Below, piece by piece: positions 1,337 through 28,111 of a stretch of 39,087 nt of DNA. Positions within the stretch are counted from its first letter, which is position 1. Each line of letters starts with the position of its first letter. The notes below the pieces were generated by a model. It saw only the letters and a program-made list of their open reading frames with translations, searched no databases and was not told where the DNA came from. The DNA is from a virus, in the IMG/VR virus record IMGVR_UViG_3300017782_000062, positions 1-39,087 of that record, one strand, 5' to 3'. The translations under genes were made by a program, and so were the position numbers.

Positions 1337-2098
1337 GTGAAAATAAAAGACAGAGTGGTTATCTTTCCAGATATACACTTTCCAAACCACGATAAAAAAG
1401 CATTTGCATGTGCATTAAACGTAATAAAAGAAGTAAAACCTTCAGCGTTCTTATTATTAGGCGATGCAATTGATGGTGAAAGCGTTAGTCATTGGCAATG
1501 GTCAAAAAAGAAAAGACCACCAGTTGAATATCAATTACCAGCAATAGATAAAGAAATAGCAGATGGAAATAAAGGATTGGACGAGATTGATGAAGTTTTA
1601 CAATTGGTACAATGCAAGAAAAAAATCTTTGCACAAGGAAACCACGAGCTCTGGTTTGACCACTTTGTCCAAGAAAACCCCTACTTAGACCAGTATGGGT
1701 CAAGAAAAGCATTTAAGTTTGATGAAAGAGGATACGAATGGCATAAATATGGAAAAGTATTTAAAGTGCTTGGAAGCAAACTCTACGCATATCATGGAGG
1801 ACATTATATGGGAATCTCCCATGCAAGAACTCATGCCTTACAATTGGGATGTAACATTATCTATGGGCATACTCACGACTGCCAAAAAGCAACCATCCAA
1901 CACATTAATGGAGCGCACATGGCACATTCAATGGGATGTTTAACTGACATGACTAAAAGTTATCTAAAAGGAAGACCAACTAATTGGAGTCACAATGTAG
2001 GTATATGTGATATAATGAATAACGGTAATTTTAATTTAGTAGTTTTAACAATAAACAATGGCTACACAACATATAATGGAAAAATAATAAGTGCCTAA
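1337..2098 (+). CDS. Calcineurin-like metallophosphoesterase
   Basis: All metal-binding blocks of the calcineurin-like family are present in 253 residues: Asp12-x-His14 (FPDIHFP), GDAIDG around Asp43, GNHE at 101-104, HGGH near His153, and GHTH at 177-180. The enzyme should hydrolyse phosphoesters with two bound metals; the substrate is unknown. The start is GTG at 1337, chosen because GGGAG lies at 1326-1330 and the competing ATG at 1324 is in another frame. Its end overlaps the next gene by 8 nt. Its position between lysis and tail genes is odd for a nucleic-acid enzyme. Confidence 0.88.
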   Translation: MKIKDRVVIFPDIHFPNHDKKAFACALNVIKEVKPSAFLLLGDAIDGESVSHWQWSKKKRPPVEYQLPAIDKEIADGNKGLDEIDEVLQLVQCKKKIFAQGNHELWFDHFVQENPYLDQYGSRKAFKFDERGYEWHKYGKVFKVLGSKLYAYHGGHYMGISHARTHALQLGCNIIYGHTHDCQKATIQHINGAHMAHSMGCLTDMTKSYLKGRPTNWSHNVGICDIMNNGNFNLVVLTINNGYTTYNGKIISA

Positions 2099-5000
2099 AG
2101 ACGTATTAGAAATAAAAACATTTGAATCTGGAAATATTTATAATGCAGATGATAGAGATATTCCAGATGATGCTGCAGTTTATAGTGAAAATATAGACCC
2201 TTATGGACAAGGTGGTTCATTAATGGCTATACAAGCTGATGCTGCTACTATTAAAACAGATGTAGATACTACTAGAATGAAACTTATAAATGATAACGGT
2301 ACTTATAGGTTGGTCTATGTAGATAAATCTGATTATGATATTAAAAAAGTAGATGATGTATATGGTAGCCCTAGTTCTCCAACTGTTTTAGAAGCTGGTA
2401 CATTTGGAACAAGCACAAGCATTGCTGCTTTGCAAACAAATAACAAAGAAGTTCATATGGGTCTAGGTAGTACAAGAGATGCTAAATGGGTTGGTACAAT
2501 ACCACATGGACAATTTGGAGGTTCTGCTCCAAGTGGGTTGCAATGTGTTAAAGCTGAATTAACAAGTCCCACTTCTTTCCCAAATATGCATAAGGTAGTT
2601 AGTGATGGTACGCATGCATATGGAATAGAATTTGGTGGATTTAGATTGTATAAATTTAAATTAAGTGACCATTCTTTTGTGGAATCAAAAATTATTGAAT
2701 CAGGTACATTGCCAGAATTAAGTGCTATAGCATTAGCTAGTGATAATAATTTATGGGTTTTTGATGTTGCAAGTAAAAATTATGTTGGCTCTGCACCCTC
2801 TACGCTTGGTTCTTGGATGAAAGTAAATGCATCTACATTAGATGTTATTTCTAGTGGTACTCTTAATATTGCAAAAACTACTAGTGATATGGTAGGCTAT
2901 GGTTATAAAGGAGTTGGAGTAACTACTACAGCGAGTGATAAACCAATTGTAACAGATATTATTGAAATAGGTAATTATTTATGGTTTGGATTAGGATGTG
3001 GCATTACAGGGCAAGCTCAAGACCTTAGAGCAAAAGTACATTTATGTAATCAAGAAACTTCTCATTTTATTACTGGAGCAACAGTAATAGCAGGTATGAG
3101 GCATTTTACAATGCAAGATGGTGGAACAGATAATGCAGGAGAATGGGAACTAGGTGGTTCTGGTAATGTTACTGCTATTATACCTCCAATATGTTTAATA
3201 GACCCTAAACATGGTAGCAATGAATATTGCGGTATTGTTATGGAATGGTACAAGCAAGATGGTAGTACTAGTATGCATAACGCATCAGGATTAGGATTAA
3301 GAGATACAAGTAATGCAAGTTCTATAAGTCAATTAGGATTAGCTATTATGAGTATGAAAATTGATGATAATGGTGGTAATGATTATCCAGATAATTGGGC
3401 ATCTTATTTTGCAGGTGGTGATATAGAAACAAGTAATGGTAGAGTATTCGGAATATTTCAAAGTAGTAATAAATCTAAAATGATGTTTGGTTTAAGAAAT
3501 AATTCTACTTCAACATTGTCAGATTATGAATTTATGGATTCATATGACCATGATACTACATATACAGACCATCAATTAGGTAATAGAACAACTAATACTG
3601 GTGAAGATATAAATAATGGTGTTGTTTATTTTAAAAACAATAGTAGTAATTATGATTATTACATATGGTCTGGTGATGGTGTAGGTCGTTTAATGTCTTT
3701 AATTAATGCTAGTAATCACTCTACTTCTAATTTTACTCCTAGATTAGAAAATGCAGTTGAGTTAGTTTTATTAGAAAACACTTTAACTAGTGCAATCCAC
3801 ACTAATAATAAAAAATATTATTATAAAGTTTCTTTTTTATATGATGGTTATCAAGAATCTCCATTAAGTGATTTTACTTCTATAGTATCAACAGGTAAAC
3901 AAATTGCAATTAATATAAATGTACATAGCGTTGTGTCAGTTAATGCAAGAGTAAGTCACGTTAATATTTATATGGCTGAAGGAGAAAATAATTCTTTATC
4001 TCCAACTGGTTTTTATAGACATGTTACGTCAGTAAAGTTAGATGCTGATTGGACTAGTGTGTCAGATAATGCTGCAAATCCTGATTGGGGAAGCTACTAT
4101 ACTAGGTTATATACCCACGCTACTGGGCTAAGTGCAAGTTATGAAGCTAGAACTGGAATATCAGAAGTATTAAAAAACACTATTCCTAAATACGGATTAA
4201 GCGCACAATTAAATAATTTTTTATATGTAGCAGATTGCAGTCATCCAGAGATAGATGATGCTTCTAATTATATATTTAAATCTAGACCATTTAATTATAA
4301 TCAGTTTAATTATATAATAGATTTTATGATATTGCCTGACAAGCCTGTTGCATTAGAAGTTTTTAATGGCAGACTATATGCATTTACTACTAATAAAACA
4401 TATGTAATAAATCCAGATGGATTGTATATAGAAGATACTTTAGAGGGTATAGGATGTAGAAATCAAAATGGAGTAGTAGTATCTGAAATTGGAATGTGCT
4501 GGATAGATTTTAATAGTATTTATTTACATGATGGTAAGGTTGTACGTGATATTGGTTCTAAAATAAAAAAAGCTCATCAAATAGATGATACTTATAATGT
4601 GTATTCTACTTTAGAAAAGTTATGTGCTTTTTCTAGTAGTGATTATGAAGGAGATATTGTGATTGCGTATGACTCATATCGCAAAGCATTCTGTTTTTTT
4701 TATACATATTATTATAATACTGTAACTACTTTTGACCAAACTGGGTGCAGTTTTGATACTACAACTGAATCAATAAACCACCCAGTAAATGCTAATATAG
4801 TTTTAGGGCTTGCAGTTTCTGGTACAGGCATGCCTAGTAATGCTGTTATTTCAGATATTGTAGAAGGTAATAATACTAGGTTTGAAATAACTCCATTTCC
4901 AACTGCTGAAGGTACAAATGTTACTCTTACTTTTACATCTACAATTCCAACATACGTACCTCAATGTTTAGTGTATACTGTACCTAAAAATAGATGGGAT

Positions 5001-5408
5001 GTTTGGAACAGAACTAATAGTAATACTACAACAACTTTTAATACTCATAGTGCTTTAAATGGTAAAAATGGTGAACTGTTAGTTTCAGATACTACAGGAT
5101 TATTAAAACCATTTGACCCTTTAAACTCTACTAGGTTAGATAATTTTAAATGGTATAGTAAAAAGTTTACAATGGGTGAATCAACATCAGATAAAAAAAT
5201 ATATAAAGTTGAAATATTATCTGAAGATAGTTCACCTACTATAACAGTTAATACAGCAGAAAATAGCAATGTTTATTCTGCTTTATCAATAAAAAGAACT
5301 GCTAGACATGCACAAATAAAACTTGAAGTTGCAGGAGATGCTACTGCAACAATAGATGCATTGCGATTAGTGTTTAGAAGGTTAAAAAGAACAAAGGCAA
5401 TGTCGTGA
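2091..5408 (+). CDS. Large tail protein, nozzle / P22-stabilisation-like
   Basis: 1105 residues starting with GTG inside the end of the phosphoesterase gene. The N-terminus (FESGNIYNADDRDIPDDAA) is typical of beta-propeller portal-closure or nozzle proteins (T7 gp12-like / P22 gp10-like). The region around residues 700-830 shows the usual propeller signature, with FKSRPFNY, LEVFNGRLYAFT and a late 'iyLhDG' repeat. Residues about 880-950 hold a beta-rich insert containing GLAVSGTGMPSNAV, a domain seen inside many phage structural proteins. The protein probably forms the tail tip below the portal. Family assignment is by pattern; position in the tail module supports it. Confidence 0.65.
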   Translation: MPKDVLEIKTFESGNIYNADDRDIPDDAAVYSENIDPYGQGGSLMAIQADAATIKTDVDTTRMKLINDNGTYRLVYVDKSDYDIKKVDDVYGSPSSPTVLEAGTFGTSTSIAALQTNNKEVHMGLGSTRDAKWVGTIPHGQFGGSAPSGLQCVKAELTSPTSFPNMHKVVSDGTHAYGIEFGGFRLYKFKLSDHSFVESKIIESGTLPELSAIALASDNNLWVFDVASKNYVGSAPSTLGSWMKVNASTLDVISSGTLNIAKTTSDMVGYGYKGVGVTTTASDKPIVTDIIEIGNYLWFGLGCGITGQAQDLRAKVHLCNQETSHFITGATVIAGMRHFTMQDGGTDNAGEWELGGSGNVTAIIPPICLIDPKHGSNEYCGIVMEWYKQDGSTSMHNASGLGLRDTSNASSISQLGLAIMSMKIDDNGGNDYPDNWASYFAGGDIETSNGRVFGIFQSSNKSKMMFGLRNNSTSTLSDYEFMDSYDHDTTYTDHQLGNRTTNTGEDINNGVVYFKNNSSNYDYYIWSGDGVGRLMSLINASNHSTSNFTPRLENAVELVLLENTLTSAIHTNNKKYYYKVSFLYDGYQESPLSDFTSIVSTGKQIAININVHSVVSVNARVSHVNIYMAEGENNSLSPTGFYRHVTSVKLDADWTSVSDNAANPDWGSYYTRLYTHATGLSASYEARTGISEVLKNTIPKYGLSAQLNNFLYVADCSHPEIDDASNYIFKSRPFNYNQFNYIIDFMILPDKPVALEVFNGRLYAFTTNKTYVINPDGLYIEDTLEGIGCRNQNGVVVSEIGMCWIDFNSIYLHDGKVVRDIGSKIKKAHQIDDTYNVYSTLEKLCAFSSSDYEGDIVIAYDSYRKAFCFFYTYYYNTVTTFDQTGCSFDTTTESINHPVNANIVLGLAVSGTGMPSNAVISDIVEGNNTRFEITPFPTAEGTNVTLTFTSTIPTYVPQCLVYTVPKNRWDVWNRTNSNTTTTFNTHSALNGKNGELLVSDTTGLLKPFDPLNSTRLDNFKWYSKKFTMGESTSDKKIYKVEILSEDSSPTITVNTAENSNVYSALSIKRTARHAQIKLEVAGDATATIDALRLVFRRLKRTKAMS

Positions 5409-7048: not shown

Positions 7049-7669
7049 ATGGACCCGAGAAGAATAATGATGTTAGTTGAAGACTACAACGCAACTCCTG
7101 ATAAATACACAGATAAGGAAGCTGAAATGATTGCTGCTTTAGCTCAACAATCAGGTCAAGAATTTAGACAAGAATCAAAACCATTACGTAAATTAGCTTT
7201 TAATTTAGCTGATACTGCTAGTTTTGGTTTATTACCAGACAGTATATTTAAACCTGAGTCAAGAGGTGAATCTGTTTATGGACAAACTATGATTGATTCT
7301 ATTGCTAGTGGAGTTGGCGCACTTGGTGGTTTAGCTACTGGTGCTGGTGCTTTATATAAAGGTGGTATGGGTGCTTCTAAGTATTTATCTAAACCTGTAA
7401 TGGGTACTACAAACGTAACTAGAGGACAACAAATGGTAAGACAAGCTAGAGATTATGCTGCTAAATCACCATTGCTACATTCTATGAGAGCGTATGGTCA
7501 ACAAGGAACTAGTGCTATAAAAGGAACAACTGCTGGTCAAGGAGTTTCTAAAGGTTTTAATAAGTTAGTAAAAAACATGTCTGAAAAACTTTTAATATCT
7601 GAAGATGTTGCTAGAAATATTTTAATGGGTAGTGGAGCTTTAGCAGGAGCTGGTTTATACTTTGAGTAA
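7049..7669 (+). CDS. Gly/Ala-rich virion protein, paralogous to the N-terminus of the giant protein
   Basis: 206 residues. Residues 13-40 and 59-81 line up with residues 17-44 and 70-89 of the downstream 2859-residue protein. Shared features are Y-x(2,3)-PD, LA-x2-S-x3-F, an FG/FD-L-x-P block, and GE-x3-x-Q. Then comes a glycine-zipper-like hydrophobic segment (SGVGALGGLATGAGAL, about 87-102) and another at the C-terminus (MGSGALAGAGLYF). Such segments are common in proteins that insert into the envelope during ejection. AAAGGAAAAT precedes the ATG. The gene overlaps the next start by 8 nt. Confidence 0.6.
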   Translation: MDPRRIMMLVEDYNATPDKYTDKEAEMIAALAQQSGQEFRQESKPLRKLAFNLADTASFGLLPDSIFKPESRGESVYGQTMIDSIASGVGALGGLATGAGALYKGGMGASKYLSKPVMGTTNVTRGQQMVRQARDYAAKSPLLHSMRAYGQQGTSAIKGTTAGQGVSKGFNKLVKNMSEKLLISEDVARNILMGSGALAGAGLYFE

Positions 7670-10600
7670 CCCTTACGAAGGCTATAAAGTACAAAGCCTT
7701 ATAAATACATACAGGTCTAATCCTGATATGTTTAATGACGACCAGCTTGATGAGCTGGAACGTTTAGCAGAAGACAGTCAAGTAAGTTTTAAAAGATTAG
7801 AAGATAATTTTAGTCTTACAAGGGCTGTGCAACAAGCGCAGTCTGGGTTTATAGAAGGACTTACTACCTTTGATTTAGTACCTAAAGAACCACGCAATAC
7901 AGGTGAGGCTATTTTTAGGCAACTAGGTCACCTTGCAGGGTTTGCTCCTGGGATTTTAAAAGCTCCATTATCTTTATTTAGACGTAACGCTGCTTTAAGA
8001 AAAATTAAAGGTGACAGCAAGTTATATAAAACTATTGAAAATGGTATAAATACTTTAGATGCTATGTCTGTACCTATGATGTTTCAAAGAGGTACAAAGA
8101 ATCTTATAGATAGTCAATTATCTAAAAGAGGTTTAGAAACAATAGATTATTTAAAAAAAGGAGCAGTGCCTAGAGCTATAGGAACAGAAGCATTAGGTCT
8201 TGGTGTTGCTAGTGCTATAAGTAATATATGGAAAGGTTCAGATGTTATAGCTGATTCTTTTATAGGTGGTGCTATAGCAGGGGGTGCATTTGGTGGTATT
8301 GGTAATTTTGTATCTGTTGGTAATTTATATAAAGGCACACCACAACAAGTAAATCAAGCAAATAAAATATTAAGAGGTAGCGTAGCATCTGCGTTTATGG
8401 GATTACCTAGTACATTTAGGGGTGACCCTACAGAGATGCAATTGTATGAGTATTTGTTAGGTGGGTTTTTTGGATACAATACAAGACCAGCTAGAGAAGC
8501 AGCTGCTGGTGAATGGATAATGGGTTCTAAAAAGAATGGCTTTACAAGAGACATTAGAGATATAGTAGACCCAGAGCAATCTAAAGATTGGAATACTATA
8601 GATAAAAAAGCTCAAGATTATATTTTAAATGAGCATCCTGCTCCTTCATTTAAAAACTCTGAAAGATTAGAAGGTGCAACTGGTAGCGCATTAGGATGGT
8701 TACAACACAATTATAAAAACTTTAATTGGAGAAATGCTGCAATTAAACATTATGAAGCAATAGACTCTAATTGGAATACGTACAGTGACAAAGGTAAGAA
8801 TACAAAGATAGCTGAATACTATAGATGGAAAGCTAGAGAAGGTATGACTGTTGATGCTTTTGGTAAAATAGCTAATGCTGTAAGTACTTCTGAGCAATTA
8901 TATGCAGAAATGCAAAGTGATTTTATGGACCCGTTTACTAAAGAAAAAGATTCTATATCTAAGATTACTGAAGAGGTCTATAAAGATGTAAAAAAGAATG
9001 AAAAAGATTCTGTTGTATACAAAGATTTTGATTCTTTTGAAAAAGTAATTATTGACGCTACTAATAAAAGCATGGGAGAAAATGGTTCTAATAGAAGATT
9101 AGAATCTTATATAGAAGATGTAAAATCTAATTTAGACTCAGAAACATTTAAAAAGCATGAAAGAAATCTTCGTAAAAAATGGTGGACTGAAACAGAACCC
9201 GCACAAGAAGTTGCATTTTTTATAGAAGGTACAGGTAAAAATATATCTGTTGATTTTACAAAGAATGAACAAATTAATAATGTATCTATTGGTGAGAAAT
9301 ATGATAAGATGCCATTAGATTATTTAGGATACTCTAAAGGGTTTAGATTTTTAACACATGGTGTAGATAAAAACGGTGAGCCATATAAAGTATTGTCACA
9401 TAGAATGGATGGAGATGGAATTTCATTTAATGTTGGTAGAGATAAATTAATTAAAATAGAAGAAGCGTTAGCTGAAAAGAATAAATATATATTTAGCGGA
9501 GTAAAAGATAAAGACTTTTTATTAACAGCAGATTTTGTAGATAATTTACAAAGCGTAATTGTTACAAAAGATATGATTAAAAATGCTATGGCTAATGACC
9601 CTTTAGAAGCTAAGGGTATAGAAAGAGCATTTAAAGATGGGCAAGCTTCTGAACGCAATGTATTTGGTAGTGATAAAAATTACGAAAGAAAATGGGTAAG
9701 TAATATTTTACATCACGCTATGTTAAATGGATTAGTAAACAGTCAAACTAATGTAAGGAATTTAAATTTAAAAAACATGTTAATGCATGAAGGCTATGGT
9801 AAATCAGTAGCTGATTTAAATAAAAGAATGACATTGCTTACTAATAGAATGGCACCAATGCAAAAAGCTAGTTATAATGAAACTAATCCTGATGGACAAA
9901 TGAGAGGTATAATAGTTAATGATATAAACACTACAGGTAATAGTGATACAGATGGTGGTTTAATTATAGCACATAAATTCTTTGACAAAACATTAAACGT
10001 TTTAGGATTTGACCCTAGAGCAGGGCATATAAAGCCTGTAATAGGTGGGCAAACAGGATTATCAGCTTTGTTTACTAAGTCCAACGGACAAAGAGCTTCT
10101 ACAGAATGGAATAAGTTTATGGAAAGCAGAGGCTTAGATTTTGTTGTATTTAATTCTGGAGCTAAACTTAGAGGAGATTTAAAATCATCTCAATTATCTA
10201 TTGATGCTACTACTGGTAATTTATCTTCTAGTGGTACAATTGTTCACACATTACCTATAGAGCATTTACAAGTAAGTACAGGTACATATGAAAATCCTAT
10301 TAAGTCTATAAAAGGAGATGAACTTCCTTTACAAGCTTATGGTCAAAGTAATAATATACAAGCTAAAGGGTTTGCTAAAGAATACATAAGTGACGTTTTA
10401 GACAGGTCTTTAGCTGGTAGTAGAGCTGGTCAAGAATTAGTAAAACAATATGACCCTAAAAAAATAGAAAAATTTATAAAGTTATTTGAAACAAATGAAT
10501 TAGGTGTTATGGAATTACCTATGGATTTTGTAACTAAAATATTATTAAAAGACCCTAGTACGCCATTAGCTAAAAAGTTTATGGATAAATTAATGAAATT

Positions 10601-13600
10601 AGAAACAGATGGATTTTTGGATTTGGATTTTGAATTTGATTCTAACAGTAATTATAGAGAGTTTCATGCAAGTAATAAAATATTAGCTGAAGCTATGGCT
10701 GGTACTTACGCAGTTAGAAATGTTTTATTTAGAGATAACTATCATAACGCATTAAAAAAATATTTAGTAAAGAGATATGCTAATCCATTTATTGAGACTG
10801 CTGGTAAGTCTTGGTTAAAAGCTTATACTCCTGACCAATTAATTAATAAGATTGTTGACCCTGCATTAACAAAAGAACAAAAGAAGGGATTAAATGAAGG
10901 AGATTTATATTTAGATAATATGTTTAAACGTATGCTTGTAGAGCATAAACATATACCTAAAGAAGATTTAGAATCTATATACCAAAGGAAACTAAAGAAT
11001 GCACAGAAAACTGATAGCAAAGCTATTATGGAAACTATCGACAAGCGAATCACATTGGGCGAAGCTTGGGAGCAATATCTTGGGAACTACTCCAGAAAGA
11101 ACCTTAAAGCGTGGAATGAAACATTTGACCTCATCGTTATTCGCACTCCTGCTGATAGTATGTCTGGCACGAGGCAGTTACGCTTTAGGGGTTTTACAGG
11201 GCAAAGAGGCTCAGGTTCGTTCACACACCACAAGGATAATATATACCTTGGAGGTGCAGACAAAGATGCAGACAGCATCAAAATATTCCAAGGGTTCAAT
11301 AAAAATTTAAGAGATTATTATACTAAAGTAAAAGATGAAAGAAGTCACTGGAAAAAAGGAAACTCTTACGATAAGTTTATAAATGATTTATTTAGAAAAG
11401 AAGGGATGACAGATAAAGAAAGAGAACGTTTTACAGGCTACAGCAAAAGTCCAAAAGACAAAGGCTATAATAGAGAAGAGGATGTCTATAATAGAATGTT
11501 TATGTTTAGCCCTGCATATAGACATAAAGTAGCTCAGAATAGTATAGCTGGTAAAGGTGGTCTTGGTTATGGTTTAAGTGCTAAAATAGTAATGCAAAAT
11601 TGGAGAGACTTTATAGCTAACAATAAAGGCAGCATTGAATTTCCTTATCAAGATTTAGAAAAAGGGTCCTTAACTGATTACATTGCTAAAGTATCTTTAA
11701 AAAAAGGCACAGTAGAAGGTCAAAGTAGAGATCAATTTTTTAGAGATTTAGGTACAGCTATTGTTAATAAATCAGCTGATGCAAGTACAGACCCTACTGT
11801 AAGAGCTTACCCTATTTTTAGGCAAATGTTATTTGATTCTTTGTTTAAAGTAGAAAGTTTTAATGCTAAAACAGGTAAGAAAAAAGAAACTATAGATACA
11901 AAGACTGGTGAAGTAACTCAAGATTACATAGGATATAAAGGCATATTAGAACTAGCACCTTTTGGTGATTTAGCAGCAATAAAAGATGCTGTTAATATTG
12001 CTAAACCTGCTTCTCAAGTTAAAAATGTATCCTATAGGTTGATTAAAGATATTGCTTTGAATAATGTATCTTCAGAAATATCTAAAAGTCTTGGATTAAC
12101 TGTAGGTGAAAGAGCTAATTATGTTAAAAACAATAAAACATATTCTTTAATTAGATTGGAAAATGTTAGCAGAAGAATGATTGAACAAGATAAAAAAAGC
12201 AAAAATCCTAAAGGTTTAGTTTTAGGTAATGCTAGGTATCAATCAACTCCTGTAGCAAAAAGTGCTATGAGTTTATATGATGTTGGACATGGTATAAATA
12301 ATGTACAAGCTAAATTATTTGCTAAAGGAGCAGATACTGTTATACCTCAAATAGTAAAAAAAATGTATGATGCTGGCATTCAATACAATTTTTTAAATTT
12401 TCCAACAATACAAAACAATTACAAAAAATTATATTCTAATGCTGACATAAAATCAGAAGGTTTTACAGGATTGACTAGATATAGTACAAAAGAAATGTCA
12501 AAGTTTATAGAGCAACATCTTGGTTTATTGTTATCTGATTTAAGTATTGCAGCTCCTGCTCAAATAAGTTATGCTATACAGCAACAAAGAAACATAGGTA
12601 GAGCTTTAGATTACATAGGTAAATCATTAGGTAATTTTGCTACAATAGAATTATTAAATAAAAATTTTATTGATATACATAAAGCATTTAGTAATAAAGG
12701 TATAAAAGCAAATGTAATAGAAAAAGTAATACCTGCTATAGTAAAAGAAGTAAAAGATTTAAAGTCTAGATTAAGTATTGATAATAGACATAAGTTAGAC
12801 AAAGATGGAATACAATTAGATGTAGAAGCAGATATAAATGCATTTAATAAGCGTTTAATAAAAAATGCAGATGCTTTTGGTGTGAGTCCTAAATTGTTTC
12901 TTGATTATTATCACAATTTATTATTAAGTCCTATAACAGGTCAAAAAACATATGCAGGTTCTAAGTTTGCTAAGAATACATTCTATAAAGATATACATAG
13001 TTCATTAGCTATTCCATTTGTTACAAAGAAAAATTTTTATCAAAAAATGGAATCAATGCATGAACGTTCTGCAGAAACTGACACTGCATTATTAAATAAT
13101 AAACCTTTAAGTATTAAACCTAGTAGTAAGGTTACTTTAGAAGGTGTTGGTGTTGAACGTAAAAAACCTATTAAAAAAGAGTCTGCAGCAGAGAAGCAGC
13201 CAGTTAAAAAAGATTTTTTAACTATTAATGAAATGATAGGTAGTGATGTTATAGAAAAACTAGCTATAAATGATAAACAGGTAGAACAAGTAAACCAATT
13301 TAGAAAGAATCTTAATGAACATAGAGTCGTTAAAAATAATTTTGAACAATGGTTTGAATATTTTACATCAATTATTAAAGGTGGTATTGTTCCAAGGGAA
13401 GCAACAACATTTAATATGAATGATGTTATTGCAGTTAATAGATATTTTAAAGGCTTGCAAGACCCTTATAATTTAGAGTTTAAATTAAAGTATTGGTTTC
13501 TTGACCCTAGGTTTGTTGATGAAAAGCTATCTACTAAAGGATTAATTAATAAATACTTTTCTTATTTTGGTAAAGTACAAACAGCAAATAATAAACAAAC

Positions 13601-16241
13601 GTTTAAAACAAAACCTATATTTAGTTTTACTAGTCCTATTGGAGAAATAGCAAAATACTTACAAGCTTCTGAAAGATATGTAAGTAAAGATTTAAAATTT
13701 GCAGAAACAAAATTGTTTAAGCCTTTTGAAAGAATATTAAAAAACTTTAATGTTAGTGAGCAAGGTAAACTAATGGAAGAGTTGTTTAAATACGTAGAAG
13801 AAAGTTACAGACCTACTGATGTTAAGACATTAAGAACATTAGAAAAATTAGATACAGCTAGAAAAGATTTATTTGAAGGTATGCAAAAATGGATATACAC
13901 TTACGACTCTAAAGGAATTAAAGCTACTAATAATCAAGGTGAGTGGATTTTAGATAAAGATTTTTTAGGGTGGTATAAATCTACAGGTGGTGTTTTAAAT
14001 AAATATATGAGGTGGGATAAATCAGGGAGGATGGATTTAGAGCATTTTAGAAAAAGCGTTATTGAAAGTGGTAACATAAATAAAAAAGAAGTTATTGATG
14101 TAATTGGTACTGATGGAATTAAAAGGTATCAAAAAGAACACAAGCTTGAAAGACTTATATTAAATAAGCCAGAAAATAATAATCTTACTTATAGAAATAG
14201 TATAAGAAAAAAATATAAAGGCATTGGTGAAATTAATTTAGATAAATATATGCCTCATTTAAATTTTGGATATAATGAATTTTCTAGAAAAGAAATAGCA
14301 TTATATTTAGAGCAAAAAACAAATGATATATATGACACTACTTATAAAAAAGCTAAGGGAGCTGGTCTTTCTGATAAAGAAGCTGGTAAAAGAGCTGAAA
14401 AAGTATCAAAAGAGTTTGTTAGAGCTAATGAAAATAAGTTAATGCAAGCGGGAGAGTTTTTTAGTTATTCTGAATTAATAGAACCTGCTATATTAACAGA
14501 AGCAGATTTAAAATCATCTTTAACAGAGCAAGGTAGTTTAGCTAGTGTGTTAAAAGCTAGAGATGCTAATGCTCCAGGTTTTGATAAAAGACCAGAAGTT
14601 ATTTTAGATTATATTAATAAAGTTATTAGAGGTTATTATAAAAATGCTGTAGCTATTAAAGGTCAGTATGAAATAGATAACATGTTAAATAAAAATAGAA
14701 AATATAAACCTAGTAAAGCAGAATCTAAAAGATTACAAGATAGCATATATAAAAATGATGTTCAAGTATGGGGAGACTACATAAAATTATATTTACAAAG
14801 TATTTTAGGACATCAGTCTTATTTTCAATCTGGTATGTTAAGTGGTAGAGACCCATTAAAATTAAAAGATAAAAGAAATTTGTTTTATTTAACATCAGAC
14901 GAAAATGTTATAGGGATATTTGAAAAGTTTTATCAAAAGAAAAACATGTCAGCTCCTTTTTTTACTCATGCTCCTAAAGGAAAAGAAGCAAGAAAGGAGT
15001 ACTTTAGTCGTAAACTACATGAATTAGGTAGGATGGAAGCCCAGTACCAATTGATGAGTTTACTGGCTAATACTGGCACATGGGCTACTAATGTACTTAG
15101 TGGGAATGCTATGACTGCAGGTAGTGCAGGTTTAAATAATTTGTTTAGTAGTTATAATAATAAGCAAGTATATGATTTGTTATTAACAAGCAATGGTAAG
15201 GATGTAGTTAAATTAAATAATGGTAAGTTTGCTAAGAATAGAAAAGATTTATTAAAACATTTAGAAGAAGTAGGTGTTATAGATGCTTTTATACAAAATG
15301 AATTTGAAATAAATACTCAAATGACTAATGGATTAAAAAAAGCAGGAATAAACGTAGCTAATTTTAAACGTGATTTAATATTATCAATAAAAGACAAAGC
15401 TAATCGCAAAGAAACACCAATAGAAGTTATTAATCGGTACGGTGTAAAAGATTTAATGGTTAAGTATGGCTCGTTTTTTATGCAGAACTCTGAACGCATA
15501 AACAGATTAAATGCGTTTACTGCTCATGCATTGCAAACAGTTAAAAGGTTTGGAGTTGAGGGTAAGGAGCTATCAATAGCAGACCCATTTGTTTTTGACA
15601 TGGCTATGAAAGGTATTGAAAATACTCAATTTCTTTATCAAAACTCTGCAAGACCAGCATTTATGAGAACTGCTGTTGGTAAAGTATTAGGCAGATTTAA
15701 ATTGTTTGTTTGGAATTCGATACGAACAAGAAAAGAATATTACAGACAAGCTAAATTATATGGGTTTAAAAAAAATACACCAGAATATGAAAGATTTAAA
15801 AATACATATATGATAGACATGTTTATGTTTGCATTAGCTAACGCATTTATGTTTAGCATATTTGATACAGCTTTAGCTCCACCATTAGATACTGTTCAAT
15901 CTATAGCAGATAGTTTATATGGTGATAAGCGTGAAAAAGAAATGGCATTTTTTGGTAGCAAATTAGGAGCATTAAATTTATTAAAACCTCCTGTTGCTAG
16001 AATACCTGATGCAGCGTGGGAGCTGCTAACTGGCGACTGGGAAAAGTTTAGTAGTTATACTGCTTACACTATGTTTCCATTTGGTAGAGGTATAAGACAA
16101 CTTGTTCAGTTTGCAGATAAACCAGAACGAGCAGGGGAAATATTTTTAAGATTACCTGTTAATCAAATTCAATCTAAAATTGACAGAGTAAAACGTAGAA
16201 CAGAACAATTTGAAGACATTCAAGAAGTATTAGGAGATTAA
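7662..16241 (+). CDS. Giant virion-type protein with RNA-polymerase-like double-psi barrel motifs
   Basis: 2859 residues, starting with TTG inside the end of the previous gene. Seen: R1161-T-P1163, then GADKDADS with Asp1200, Asp1202 and Asp1204. This matches the R-x-P ... NADFDGD arrangement of the RNA polymerase beta-prime active site; the spacing is 39 residues here and 35 in E. coli as I recall. Upstream, D762-T-D764-GG, Lys791 (HIKPVIGG) and Lys806 (FTKSNG) fit the beta-like barrel with its two conserved lysines, in the YonO / QDE-1 / crAss gp66 order. AGKGGLGYG follows at about 1296-1304. The C-terminus has a hydrophobic stretch (about 2715-2735) and a basic end, like other giant injected proteins. 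Inference: an RNA polymerase packaged in the virion and injected with the DNA. The third Gly of DFDGD is Ala here, and activity is unproven. Alternative: a large ejection protein with an inactive barrel. Confidence 0.65.
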   Translation: MSNPYEGYKVQSLINTYRSNPDMFNDDQLDELERLAEDSQVSFKRLEDNFSLTRAVQQAQSGFIEGLTTFDLVPKEPRNTGEAIFRQLGHLAGFAPGILKAPLSLFRRNAALRKIKGDSKLYKTIENGINTLDAMSVPMMFQRGTKNLIDSQLSKRGLETIDYLKKGAVPRAIGTEALGLGVASAISNIWKGSDVIADSFIGGAIAGGAFGGIGNFVSVGNLYKGTPQQVNQANKILRGSVASAFMGLPSTFRGDPTEMQLYEYLLGGFFGYNTRPAREAAAGEWIMGSKKNGFTRDIRDIVDPEQSKDWNTIDKKAQDYILNEHPAPSFKNSERLEGATGSALGWLQHNYKNFNWRNAAIKHYEAIDSNWNTYSDKGKNTKIAEYYRWKAREGMTVDAFGKIANAVSTSEQLYAEMQSDFMDPFTKEKDSISKITEEVYKDVKKNEKDSVVYKDFDSFEKVIIDATNKSMGENGSNRRLESYIEDVKSNLDSETFKKHERNLRKKWWTETEPAQEVAFFIEGTGKNISVDFTKNEQINNVSIGEKYDKMPLDYLGYSKGFRFLTHGVDKNGEPYKVLSHRMDGDGISFNVGRDKLIKIEEALAEKNKYIFSGVKDKDFLLTADFVDNLQSVIVTKDMIKNAMANDPLEAKGIERAFKDGQASERNVFGSDKNYERKWVSNILHHAMLNGLVNSQTNVRNLNLKNMLMHEGYGKSVADLNKRMTLLTNRMAPMQKASYNETNPDGQMRGIIVNDINTTGNSDTDGGLIIAHKFFDKTLNVLGFDPRAGHIKPVIGGQTGLSALFTKSNGQRASTEWNKFMESRGLDFVVFNSGAKLRGDLKSSQLSIDATTGNLSSSGTIVHTLPIEHLQVSTGTYENPIKSIKGDELPLQAYGQSNNIQAKGFAKEYISDVLDRSLAGSRAGQELVKQYDPKKIEKFIKLFETNELGVMELPMDFVTKILLKDPSTPLAKKFMDKLMKLETDGFLDLDFEFDSNSNYREFHASNKILAEAMAGTYAVRNVLFRDNYHNALKKYLVKRYANPFIETAGKSWLKAYTPDQLINKIVDPALTKEQKKGLNEGDLYLDNMFKRMLVEHKHIPKEDLESIYQRKLKNAQKTDSKAIMETIDKRITLGEAWEQYLGNYSRKNLKAWNETFDLIVIRTPADSMSGTRQLRFRGFTGQRGSGSFTHHKDNIYLGGADKDADSIKIFQGFNKNLRDYYTKVKDERSHWKKGNSYDKFINDLFRKEGMTDKERERFTGYSKSPKDKGYNREEDVYNRMFMFSPAYRHKVAQNSIAGKGGLGYGLSAKIVMQNWRDFIANNKGSIEFPYQDLEKGSLTDYIAKVSLKKGTVEGQSRDQFFRDLGTAIVNKSADASTDPTVRAYPIFRQMLFDSLFKVESFNAKTGKKKETIDTKTGEVTQDYIGYKGILELAPFGDLAAIKDAVNIAKPASQVKNVSYRLIKDIALNNVSSEISKSLGLTVGERANYVKNNKTYSLIRLENVSRRMIEQDKKSKNPKGLVLGNARYQSTPVAKSAMSLYDVGHGINNVQAKLFAKGADTVIPQIVKKMYDAGIQYNFLNFPTIQNNYKKLYSNADIKSEGFTGLTRYSTKEMSKFIEQHLGLLLSDLSIAAPAQISYAIQQQRNIGRALDYIGKSLGNFATIELLNKNFIDIHKAFSNKGIKANVIEKVIPAIVKEVKDLKSRLSIDNRHKLDKDGIQLDVEADINAFNKRLIKNADAFGVSPKLFLDYYHNLLLSPITGQKTYAGSKFAKNTFYKDIHSSLAIPFVTKKNFYQKMESMHERSAETDTALLNNKPLSIKPSSKVTLEGVGVERKKPIKKESAAEKQPVKKDFLTINEMIGSDVIEKLAINDKQVEQVNQFRKNLNEHRVVKNNFEQWFEYFTSIIKGGIVPREATTFNMNDVIAVNRYFKGLQDPYNLEFKLKYWFLDPRFVDEKLSTKGLINKYFSYFGKVQTANNKQTFKTKPIFSFTSPIGEIAKYLQASERYVSKDLKFAETKLFKPFERILKNFNVSEQGKLMEELFKYVEESYRPTDVKTLRTLEKLDTARKDLFEGMQKWIYTYDSKGIKATNNQGEWILDKDFLGWYKSTGGVLNKYMRWDKSGRMDLEHFRKSVIESGNINKKEVIDVIGTDGIKRYQKEHKLERLILNKPENNNLTYRNSIRKKYKGIGEINLDKYMPHLNFGYNEFSRKEIALYLEQKTNDIYDTTYKKAKGAGLSDKEAGKRAEKVSKEFVRANENKLMQAGEFFSYSELIEPAILTEADLKSSLTEQGSLASVLKARDANAPGFDKRPEVILDYINKVIRGYYKNAVAIKGQYEIDNMLNKNRKYKPSKAESKRLQDSIYKNDVQVWGDYIKLYLQSILGHQSYFQSGMLSGRDPLKLKDKRNLFYLTSDENVIGIFEKFYQKKNMSAPFFTHAPKGKEARKEYFSRKLHELGRMEAQYQLMSLLANTGTWATNVLSGNAMTAGSAGLNNLFSSYNNKQVYDLLLTSNGKDVVKLNNGKFAKNRKDLLKHLEEVGVIDAFIQNEFEINTQMTNGLKKAGINVANFKRDLILSIKDKANRKETPIEVINRYGVKDLMVKYGSFFMQNSERINRLNAFTAHALQTVKRFGVEGKELSIADPFVFDMAMKGIENTQFLYQNSARPAFMRTAVGKVLGRFKLFVWNSIRTRKEYYRQAKLYGFKKNTPEYERFKNTYMIDMFMFALANAFMFSIFDTALAPPLDTVQSIADSLYGDKREKEMAFFGSKLGALNLLKPPVARIPDAAWELLTGDWEKFSSYTAYTMFPFGRGIRQLVQFADKPERAGEIFLRLPVNQIQSKIDRVKRRTEQFEDIQEVLGD

Positions 16242-24868: not shown

Positions 24869-25151
24869 TATCTTTCTCCTGTTGTTTAATATGTTGTTTA
24901 ATAATTACTTCTGTAACACCAAATCTATCCATACCTTCGAGACAATTACGTAATTGTACTTCTGTTTGGTTTTTATGTGTTATTGTTGTAGCTCCATCAA
25001 CTAGTACTTCTATGTCGTAACGTTGTTTATTACTAACAACATTACCAACTTTACTAGTTGCTGTACCTACAAATCGTAACACATTGTTTAAACCAAAAGC
25101 AAGATAACCTAATGTTTTACTTAGTTGACCAAATAATGCTAATTTGTTCAT
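24849..25151 (-). CDS. Hypothetical 100-residue protein
   Basis: The N-terminal half is mildly hydrophobic (LGYLAFGLNNVLRFVGTATSK region, about 14-34). The middle is beta-like (YDIEVLVDGATTITHK) and the C-terminus charged (KQQEKDNESNKS). It is coupled to the upstream gene by an ATGA overlap. I do not recognise it. Confidence 0.55.
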   Translation of the reverse strand: MNKLALFGQLSKTLGYLAFGLNNVLRFVGTATSKVGNVVSNKQRYDIEVLVDGATTITHKNQTEVQLRNCLEGMDRFGVTEVIIKQHIKQQEKDNESNKS

Positions 25152-25441
25152 TTATGCTCTCCTCCTTCTAACCATCTATCTATATGATTATTTTCTAAGT
25201 CTCTTAGTTTATTTTGTATTTCGATTGTTTTACATTCTTCTTTAGTTAATTCATATCTAAAAGGTGCTGCTTGCATTTGCATACGCATAGTTTTACCTGT
25301 TTTATACGAATCTTCAAAACATTCTGGACAATACAAAACATCGTGACCTTTAGTTATATATTCTTCAGTAATTGAATCTAATTCTACATAACTAGTTTCA
25401 ATCATTTCTGGTTTAACATCTGGATGTATTATACATCTCAT
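25148..25441 (-). CDS. Zinc-ribbon-like 97-residue protein, first gene of the replication operon
   Basis: Cys3-x2-His6 near the start and Cys38-x2-Cys41 (YCPEC) can form one zinc site. The rest is helical and charged. It is the first gene after the promoter-like motif at 25467-25480, with GGAGGTAAAA at good spacing before the ATG. A first-position zinc protein could be a regulator of the operon, but no DNA-binding signature is visible. Confidence 0.55.
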   Translation of the reverse strand: MRCIIHPDVKPEMIETSYVELDSITEEYITKGHDVLYCPECFEDSYKTGKTMRMQMQAAPFRYELTKEECKTIEIQNKLRDLENNHIDRWLEGGEHK

Positions 25442-25606: not shown

Positions 25607-25627
25607 ATGTTGCTTATTTAATTTTTA

Positions 25628-26433
25628 GAGGTTATACACAACCCTAACACGCTTCCCCTACTGACACTTGTTGCAAACTTGTGGTAGGTTTATCGCATGC
25701 TTGTACTCTACTATACTACTATAAGATGTATAGTTTCTTCCAATGGTGGCTATTGTCATGACGTTAACGAATGTTAATGTGCATAACCTCTTATATCTTC
25801 TGGGATGTTCATGGTGAGCTGTGGTATCCATGTTTCAAGGCTCTCGACTTCCTCGCTCCTAGTCCATCCCAGTGTCTGTTATAACGGTTTTATTAGGGAG
25901 CCTCTTACTATTCACTATAAACATGTTTACCAATTACAAACATGAATAACAATAGTTTCATACTTCAGTCAGCTCCCTAATAAGTTTTTGGTGCTAACAT
26001 TAGTGGACGTCTCTGCATACTATTAACCAAGCGGTTAACACCATATATAATTTAAAGCCCTTTTACTTATCAACTTACTAATGTTAAATAATAAACCAAT
26101 AAAAAAGGAGTAGTAAGGATTTGTTTCAAAGGGCTTTAATGTTTTGCTCTGTTTTGTGCCAAGGTACAGAGCAAACCTTGTTTAATCAGACATTTAGTTC
26201 CTCTGATTATGGAACCTATACGCTACCTGACTGGTTAGTTAATTAGTCTAACCCAAGATTGATAATTACGCTTTCGAATGACTCTGCTGTTTCTTTTAGA
26301 TTATACAGATTATGGTACCTAAAACAGGCATGAAAGCAGGGTAATTATGAGAGCTTGCGGTAGTTTATTAACTTAAGACTATAGCTTTCGCTAGTGACAG
26401 GCCTTTACTATCTTACTAACTACCTGTCTTAAG
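25628..26433 (-). ncRNA. Large structured noncoding RNA candidate (about 806 nt)
   Basis: No ORF of note occurs, yet perfect or near-perfect complementary arms are dense. Examples (paired positions): 26426-26433/26372-26379; 26332-26337 with 26341-26348 against 26262-26275 (14 bp, one bulge); 26143-26151/26167-26175; 26053-26063/26128-26138 (11 bp); 25995-26004/26077-26086 (10 bp); 25891-25901/25972-25982 (11 bp) enclosing 25907-25912/25951-25956 and 25922-25928/25938-25944; 25800-25807/25865-25872; 25628-25635/25783-25790 closing three inner hairpins. Read on the minus strand, the hairpin at 26382-26393 is UAGC-GAAA-GCUA, a GNRA tetraloop, which supports that strand. A promoter-like motif lies 8 nt upstream. 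Size and ornateness recall the GOLLD and ROOL RNAs of phages; membership is not shown. Confidence 0.6.
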
Positions 26434-26437
26434 GTTA

Positions 26438-26452
26438 TAAATAAAGGAAACT
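26438..26452 (-). promoter_or_regulatory. Repeated promoter-like motif, copy 2 (before the structured RNA)
   Basis: The minus strand reads AGTTTCCTTTATTTA. The core ends at 26441, 8 nt before the first helix of the ORF-free structured region. No coding start follows for about 1 kb, so this copy would drive a noncoding transcript. Confidence 0.5.
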
Positions 26453-26557
26453 GTAAAATCATGCTTAAAAAGCAGCTTGTTTATTGTGGTTCCGTTTTTT
26501 TGTGAGTTAAATATATAGAGTGACTGAAGAATGAAGGAACACATTTAGCACAATAAT

Positions 26558-26600: not shown

Positions 26601-26942
26601 TTACTCTTCAGTAGACACTACCATATATCTTAGAGTATCATTTTTACAATGATGCACTGTACCCTCTGCAAGTATAAACTTAGACTTGCTTAATATATCA
26701 GTAGTTTCTACGAACTCGTCTTCACATGTTTCAATGTCTTTGATGAACATATTTACAATAAATCCCTCATCAATTACATCTCTTATGTCGTCCATTTGTA
26801 TTGCTGTATCTTGCCATACTCCGTTAGTATTGACAGATTTATTAAACCAAATACGTTTACTGGCTCGCTTTTCATTGCGTGTTTCAACGACTTTCTCGAT
26901 TGATTTCCAGTAACTTTCTAGAACTTTTGACAATTTACTCAT
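26601..26942 (-). CDS. Hypothetical 113-residue early protein
   Basis: Basic N-terminal helix (LESYWKSIEKVVETRNEKRA), then a mixed acidic region (IQMDDIRDVIDEGF; DIETCEDEFVETTD). AAGGAAGATACT precedes the ATG. It is a single-gene unit with the promoter-like motif 47 nt upstream and a hairpin downstream. I do not recognise a family. Isolated small early genes like this are often host-takeover factors, which is only a contextual guess. Confidence 0.6.
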   Translation of the reverse strand: MSKLSKVLESYWKSIEKVVETRNEKRASKRIWFNKSVNTNGVWQDTAIQMDDIRDVIDEGFIVNMFIKDIETCEDEFVETTDILSKSKFILAEGTVHHCKNDTLRYMVVSTEE

Positions 26943-27788: not shown

Positions 27789-28111
27789 TCTAACGATACG
27801 TAAGGATTATATATTACTACCACACGTACATATAGGGGAATACCTGTGCGACTGCGGCTGTCTGCACACAGACAGGGGGTCGCCAGATGTATGATAAGGG
27901 AGGGGTTAATAAAGGGTGAGTGTAACGAACTCAACCTAACTCGATGTTTCAACTCAACCTAATTCAACCCCACAACCCCTAATGTAAGGGGGTAGGGTAA
28001 CCTATATACCTCTCACACACATTCTAAAATATATTTCCACAAGAGTATTGGAACATATTACTAAACTTTTAGGTTGAATTAACATAATGTTTAACTTTAA
28101 CTTAAAAGGAC
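27789..28111. promoter_or_regulatory. Divergent control region with repeats, possible operator/origin
   Basis: This 323-nt gene-free stretch separates the minus-strand early genes from the plus-strand late operon. It holds a CTGTCTG-CACA-CAGACAG hairpin (27858-27875) and a CCCCT/AGGGG hairpin (27976-27991). It also holds the 9-bp core TCAACCTAA twice in direct orientation (27931-27939, 27954-27962, within AACTCAACCTAAYTC) and once inverted (28069-28077). A weak sigma-like box TTGAAT (28074-28079) lies before the first late gene. The repeats may bind a regulator or initiator; nothing proves an origin. Confidence 0.45.

Follow-up and report, generated by a model that had tools for sequence, protein, structure and literature searches.

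A candidate family of large structured phage RNAs with conserved ends and exchangeable middle modules

Introduction

GOLLD is an RNA of phages and prophages, in many cases longer than 800 nt, in which the 3' region is universally conserved and the 5' region less so (PMC12286853). ROOL is also phage-borne, about 660 nt long in the solved example, contains multiple pseudoknots and has no known protein partner, and OLE is a large ornate RNA that dimerises partly via a palindromic loop (PMC12286853). In a 2025 cryo-EM study of these three RNAs, palindrome switching was taken as evidence for symmetric kissing contacts (PMC12286853, section 8). Compact H-type pseudoknots form the fold class of ToxI, the type III antitoxin, which is mimicked by phage pseudo-ToxI (PMC3475682).

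Here, we describe a noncoding stretch of about 800 bases in a 39,087-bp linear IMG/VR virus record, the whole of which is referred to as the window. An initial annotation had described this stretch as free of open reading frames (ORFs) and covered by long-range helices, and had proposed a giant noncoding RNA that is either GOLLD- or ROOL-like or of a new class. The features discussed below are collected in Table 1.

Table 1. Coordinates of the RNA modules, promoter-like motifs and flanking genes (positions in the window unless a contig is named)
Feature	Position	Strand	Basis or remark
5'-most hairpin region, CTTAAGAC/GTCTTAAG stem and GAAA hairpin	26372..26433	-	weakest-supported part
Module A, conserved 5' domain, five counted helices	26218..26369	-	alignment A5
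PK1, H-type pseudoknot GTTCC-A-TAATCAGA-GGAAC-TAAATG-TCTGATTA	26183..26215	-	compensatory change
PK2, H-type pseudoknot CAAGGT/ACCTTG with TTGCTCTGT/ACAGAGCAA	26144..26180	-	alignment A6
Module B, TTAAAGCCCTTT.../AAAGGGCTTTAA	26052..26139	-	common to L003, L007, L013
Hairpin domain GGTGTTAAC/GTTAGCACC	25990..26042	-	L003, L007 with other inner hairpin
Module C, 12-bp helix TTATTAGGGAGC/GCTCCCTAATAA (25972-25983 with 25890-25901)	25890..25983	-	also L002
Module F, hairpin domain CACTGGGATG/CATCCCAG	25800..25874	-	comparison with L004, L009-L012
Module D, conserved 3' domain	25627..25795	-	alignment A7
D, closing helix P1	25778-25791/25627-25640	-	14 bp
D, hairpin P2	25764-25777	-	
D, invariant linker with palindrome GTCATGAC	25755-25762	-	
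D, helices P4 and P5	within 25627..25795	-	
TCCTTTATYT copies before leftward units	25469, 26439, 26987, 27428, 27775	-	motif count
Flanking gene	26601-26942	-	113 aa
Flanking gene	25148-25441	-	97 aa
Module M, stand-alone sites	L046 56-135; L047 1163-1242; L048 3709-3788; L049 408-487		
Module M, stand-alone sites	L050 313-392; L051 56-135; L052 6979-7058; L053 288-367		

Results

Between 17 and 28 kb the window is transcribed leftward and encodes a primase-helicase, an Erf-like annealing protein and a protein of the phrog_1221 family; the left and right parts are transcribed rightward, and the terminase, portal and major head protein are encoded on the right. The RNA stretch lies inside the leftward block, flanked by two small genes, and no family matches were found for its neighbouring genes. 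Comparison with isolate phages gave distant matches only, none of which assigns a host. The phages are presumably marine, as suggested in the initial annotation and by some of the sample numbers. Elsewhere in the window, a hairpin-bearing intergenic stretch at 27810-28060, where the leftward and rightward gene blocks diverge, is a candidate origin or bidirectional promoter region, and two long proteins are encoded, one of 2859 aa without a Pfam match (7662-16241) and one of 1105 aa without a Pfam or PHROG match (2091-5408).

Relatives were found by means of the 97-aa neighbour together with an 18-mer of the 3' domain (D), which yielded the IMG/VR contigs L002-L013 and L027; L039 (the same contig as L043) was found later through a 470-aa gene, and L044 is a truncated copy. 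A complete 3' domain is present in 13 other IMG/VR phage contigs, 12 of which, like the window, also have the 5' domain (A) and have homologues of the two small genes on either side of the stretch. The homologous noncoding stretch is located upstream of the 97-aa homologue throughout L002-L013 (L005 and L006 are near-identical to L004), the RNA measures 512-870 nt between the outer ends of A and D, and no second strong copy was found in contigs that were searched whole. In a blastn search of 50,697 phage records, the region had no match. Matches to the D pattern in genome collections, i.e., L029 (a Thermotoga MAG) and L030 (Nitrosopumilaceae), have the 18-mer alone in common, look like chance and were rejected. 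Contigs L031-L037 keep relatives of the flanking genes with no D-domain match in these loci or records, which points to a presence/absence cassette. In the same contigs, TCCTTTATYT is found upstream of leftward units.

The gene that follows D varies among the relatives; it encodes 56, 119, 45 or 113 aa, or is absent, and in L027 and L039 it is convergent. In these two contigs, which may be temperate, the convergent gene just past D appears to be regulator-like, with a helix-turn-helix-like segment (ISRATLYNWINGGE). A 470-aa protein, for which there is a weak PHROG match only, is encoded directly before D in L027 (1480-2892, minus strand) and before the RNA in L039, and it is found without the RNA in L040 and L041. 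This ORF was considered as a partner protein of the RNA or as an intron ORF and rejected, as L040 and L041 carry it and have no D in their records; its position upstream of the RNA in L039 was taken as further evidence against either reading.

The promoter-like motif that had been noted upstream of the stretch is indeed present, as TCCTTTATTT at 26439-26448 on the minus strand, 5 nt upstream of position 26433. The 10-mer TCCTTTATYT has six exact copies in the window, where 0.65 are expected, five directly upstream of minus-strand units and one within a gene, and motifs resembling it, such as TTCCTTTATCTATG, are found in the relatives too. It is probably the phage's own promoter consensus. Within the window, the RNA stretch has one such motif and none internally, and the next gene after the RNA has a motif of its own.

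The stretch at 25628-26433 contains no ORF longer than 57 aa on either strand. No reading frame is conserved across the relatives, and insertions and deletions fall between helices. The longest stop-free runs, of 93-100 codons in L009, L011 and L012, are broken in the window and missing in the others; they fall on PK2 through module F and D. A short ORF (...HHEHPRRYK...) before D was rejected as a gene because the window interrupts its frame and other relatives lack it; the compensatory change in the hairpin formed by this segment was also counted against it. The fold is more stable than those of dinucleotide shuffles: the minus strand at 25620-26470 folds at -217 kcal/mol, lower than all 20 shuffled sequences (-188.6 ± 7.8 kcal/mol; z = -3.66), and for the plus strand z is -3.06.

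Support for the pairing is provided by comparison among the phages, which had been proposed as a check. In three alignments, 42 compensated cells in 14 pairs were found, well above the 6.6 ± 3.4 cells and 3.8 ± 1.6 pairs obtained when substitutions were re-placed randomly on the tree (0 of 1000). Most of this covariation is supplied by about 11 related phages, and the counted helices were chosen with the alignment in view, an effect that is limited in part by the slid-partner and tree-null controls. When read on the minus strand, the alignments contain 36 G·U cells and 2 A·C cells, which indicates that the molecule is an RNA transcribed from this strand; with the D model, the score is 192 bits for the minus and 16 bits for the plus strand.

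In the 3' domain D, 99.7% of the aligned cells are paired, and changes on both sides are seen in 7 pairs and 19 cells, compared to 3.7 and 5.9, respectively, after shuffling; slid partners gave no more than 2 pairs and 5 cells. The 14-bp helix of the initial annotation is the closing helix P1. Its GGTT/AACC in the window is replaced by GCCT/AGGC in L008-L012 with pairing kept, and P1 is rebuilt with other letters in L027 (ATAAACTATACACA/TGTGTATAGTTTAT) and L039 (TTAGCATCATGCTGC/GCAGTGTGATGCTAA), the two contigs in which D is found without a detectable A. In most relatives, D ends shortly before a ribosome-binding site.

The 5' domain A has 18 cells changed on both sides, compared to 6.2 after shuffling and none when slid, and is detected by covariance model R2 in 10 of the 27 sources searched. 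Both A and D have closing helices of their own, and their order and ends are constant in the 12 alignable relatives. Upstream of A, the 5'-most hairpin region is present in the window, has a varied form in L002 and is replaced in the other relatives; the GAAA-capped hairpin described earlier is found here (CTAGCGAAAGCTA, 26382-26394) and is not kept in every relative.

A loop in A contains the palindrome GGTACC (within 26313-26320 in the window); eight of the distinct sequences have this hexamer, two have AGTACT and one has GATATC, so that all 11 are palindromic. Random re-placement of the observed substitutions gives this retention a P value of 0.001-0.008, before allowing for the five conserved palindromes examined. 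In L007 the inner G-C around the two-base centre has become A-T, which is impossible as a pair within one molecule; the outer change of L011 and L012 could be such a pair. The palindrome GTCATGAC in D is invariant except in L039, where it is replaced by GTACGTAC, which is still palindromic (about 1 in 16 by chance). The conserved palindromic hexamers, five in number, are about as many as expected by chance and are unusual only in their covariation, which comes down to two changes in A (one of them possibly intramolecular) and one in D. Palindrome switching in both domains, together with the precedent of GOLLD, ROOL and OLE (PMC12286853), favours homo-oligomerisation, which on this analysis is a quite possible property of A and D, if short of an even chance.

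The segment between A and D is composed of modules that differ among the relatives. In PK1, TAATCAGA/TCTGATTA of the window is matched by TAATTAGA/TCTAATTA in L003 and L007, a compensatory change, and the pseudoknot is also found in L050, beside module M. PK2, with 7 compensated cells compared to 1.4 after shuffling, has a second helix that changes from GCTCTGT/ACAGAGC to CCCCTGC/GCAGGGG in L008; it is present in every A-bearing relative and in L046, where it lies beside M and no A or D was found. The stem of module B is GCCC/GGGC in three sequences and CCCC/GGGG in L013, and in L002 the outer helix of module C is retained with the inner hairpin exchanged. Module F has CTGGGATG/CATCCCAG in the window and L004, and CTAGGATG/CATCCTAG in L009-L012; in each of modules B, E and F there are changes on both sides of a helix. 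Module M, a small structured RNA motif of 60 nt (GTCTAGCATAAAAAAACTATGTGAGTGAAGATAGACCGARAAACCACACA), has a closing stem that covaries (9 compensated cells, 3.0 after shuffling); it is found in eight further contigs upstream of different genes, usually just before the ribosome-binding site. Its relatives in L003 and L013 matched no Rfam family, and a blastn search with M gave no match. Module E is located at about 4780-4870 in L002, 5032-5131 in L008 and about 5690-5790 in L039; it has conserved ATATYYCCTGCGA ... CGTAYACAGTTARRATTAA with covarying helices between these strands, and by its appearance may be an internal-loop binding motif.

The order of the modules, as read from the alignment, is A-PK1-PK2-B-hairpin-C-F-D in the window, A-PK1-PK2-M-B-...-D in L003 and L007, A-PK2-M-B-...-D in L013, A-E-PK2-F-D in L004 and L011, A-E-PK2-D in L008, A-PK2-F-D in L009 and M-E-D in L039. 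As judged from these sequences, the content from A to D is gained, lost and swapped among close relatives.

The helices named in the initial annotation are present, but several very long-range inverted repeats, e.g., 25957-25971 with 26521-26535, are without comparative support. When the minimum-energy fold of the whole stretch was mapped on the relatives, 73% of the cells were paired, which is weakly above the null of 66.8 ± 1.1%, and a single global fold was not adopted. The helices with good support are local, inside modules of about 40-170 nt, and with the whole-length fold weakly supported, the RNA is therefore described as a chain of domains rather than as a proven single giant fold. In other words, the covariation strongly supports the structured minus-strand part of the original proposal, while the relatives show, rather than one integrated giant fold, separable modules arranged around the conserved D.

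The GOLLD, ROOL and OLE covariance models of Rfam did not match the RNA. At the gathering score nothing was found in the window and six relatives, permissive searches gave no relevant match in the region (E ≤ 10) and none in four relatives (E ≤ 1), and no family of Rfam 15 matches. No description of the RNA was found in a limited search of the open-access literature, which is weak evidence. Of the two classes originally suggested, the new one survives, and the best reading of the sequence is that of an uncatalogued family of large ornate phage RNAs that is not a member of GOLLD or ROOL.

Discussion

From the above results, we infer with moderate confidence that the stretch encodes a member of a new phage RNA family, large (about 0.5-0.9 kb), structured and acting in trans, and the unit would then be a gene with an RNA product. 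This RNA would be transcribed leftward as a unit of its own, within the replication-gene block, from a phage-specific promoter. The domains A and D would form the core of a particle in which RNA copies associate via self-complementary loops (GGUACC in A, GUCAUGAC in D), as has been reported for GOLLD and OLE. The middle modules would be a variable payload for the binding or titration of factors of the host or the phage; such a role would explain both their fast turnover and why they are also seen on their own in other phages. A binding or decoy role of the exchangeable modules is suggested tentatively. The more specific picture, in which A and D self-assemble via the palindromic loops and the modules are drawn from a pool shared among phages, is speculative and rather unlikely to hold in full; if true, it would be a combinatorial RNA counterpart of the mosaicism of phage early genes.

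The alternative that survives best, to which we assign a minor yet appreciable probability, is an RNA island, in which small structured RNAs that are independent of one another form an array that is co-transcribed or processed. Each would have a target of its own and could, like phage pseudo-ToxI or Racr RNAs, be a decoy for host defence factors. The modules close locally and are gained and lost independently, M, PK1 and PK2 are found also outside this locus, PK1 and PK2 belong to the compact H-type fold class of ToxI (PMC3475682), and Racr RNAs are a precedent for counter-defence by phage RNA (PMC10651486). However, the constant order and ends of A and D in the 12 alignable relatives and the single promoter motif in the window, with none internal, argue against such an array, and the window has no tandem repeats of PK1 or PK2, no adjacent toxin gene and no ToxI-type Rfam match.

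A long cis-acting leader, for example a riboswitch, a ribosomal-protein-type leader or an antiterminator controlling the next gene, would fit the position of D and of stand-alone M, which mostly lie shortly before ribosome-binding sites. It is nevertheless improbable, because the downstream gene is different, missing or convergent while D is retained; in the window, moreover, this gene has its own promoter motif. The intergenic position in a replication-gene block and the many inverted repeats could also reflect a DNA-level element, such as a replication or packaging signal that folds as a single strand, but the tolerance of G·U over A·C, the presence/absence pattern and the recurrence of some modules in other phages make this very unlikely. 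Finally, a divergent member of GOLLD, ROOL or OLE, or a group I/II intron that has decayed, which could be suspected from the size, the phage setting and, as for GOLLD (PMC12286853), a conserved 3' and a variable 5' part, can hardly be upheld given that there is no Rfam match at gathering or permissive scores, the flanking genes are complete rather than exon halves, and the 470-aa ORF of L027 is a separate phage gene that elsewhere occurs without the RNA.

Very large phage RNAs make up only a few known classes, to which the trans-acting RNA family favoured here would add one that is absent from Rfam 15 and whose structure is backed by compensatory changes. Because modules are exchanged among close relatives, it can be asked which parts of such an RNA assemble and which carry function. 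The palindrome covariation makes a directly testable prediction of oligomerisation, with GAUAUC in A and GUACGUAC in D as the natural alternative palindromes.

Comparison with known RNA classes

The H-type pseudoknots recall ToxI, which however consists of tandem repeats of about 36 nt before a toxin gene, whereas PK1 and PK2 are single copies in a mosaic. With OLE the RNA shares a palindromic loop, and with ROOL its large size, phage-borne nature and pseudoknots; neither covariance model matches it. The covariance model of GOLLD does not match either, and the likeness is one of architecture, not of sequence: the RNA is large and encoded by a phage (with terminase, portal and head genes in the window), has a conserved 3' part (D, in the window and 13 contigs), a 5' domain present in the window and 12 of these 13 contigs and a variable middle, and contains self-complementary loops with palindrome switching (PMC12286853), the multimer here being a prediction from sequence. 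GOLLD is often found near tRNA genes, of which the 39-kb window has none, and the present RNA also differs from it in its middle part, which is composed of swappable modules that are also found elsewhere.
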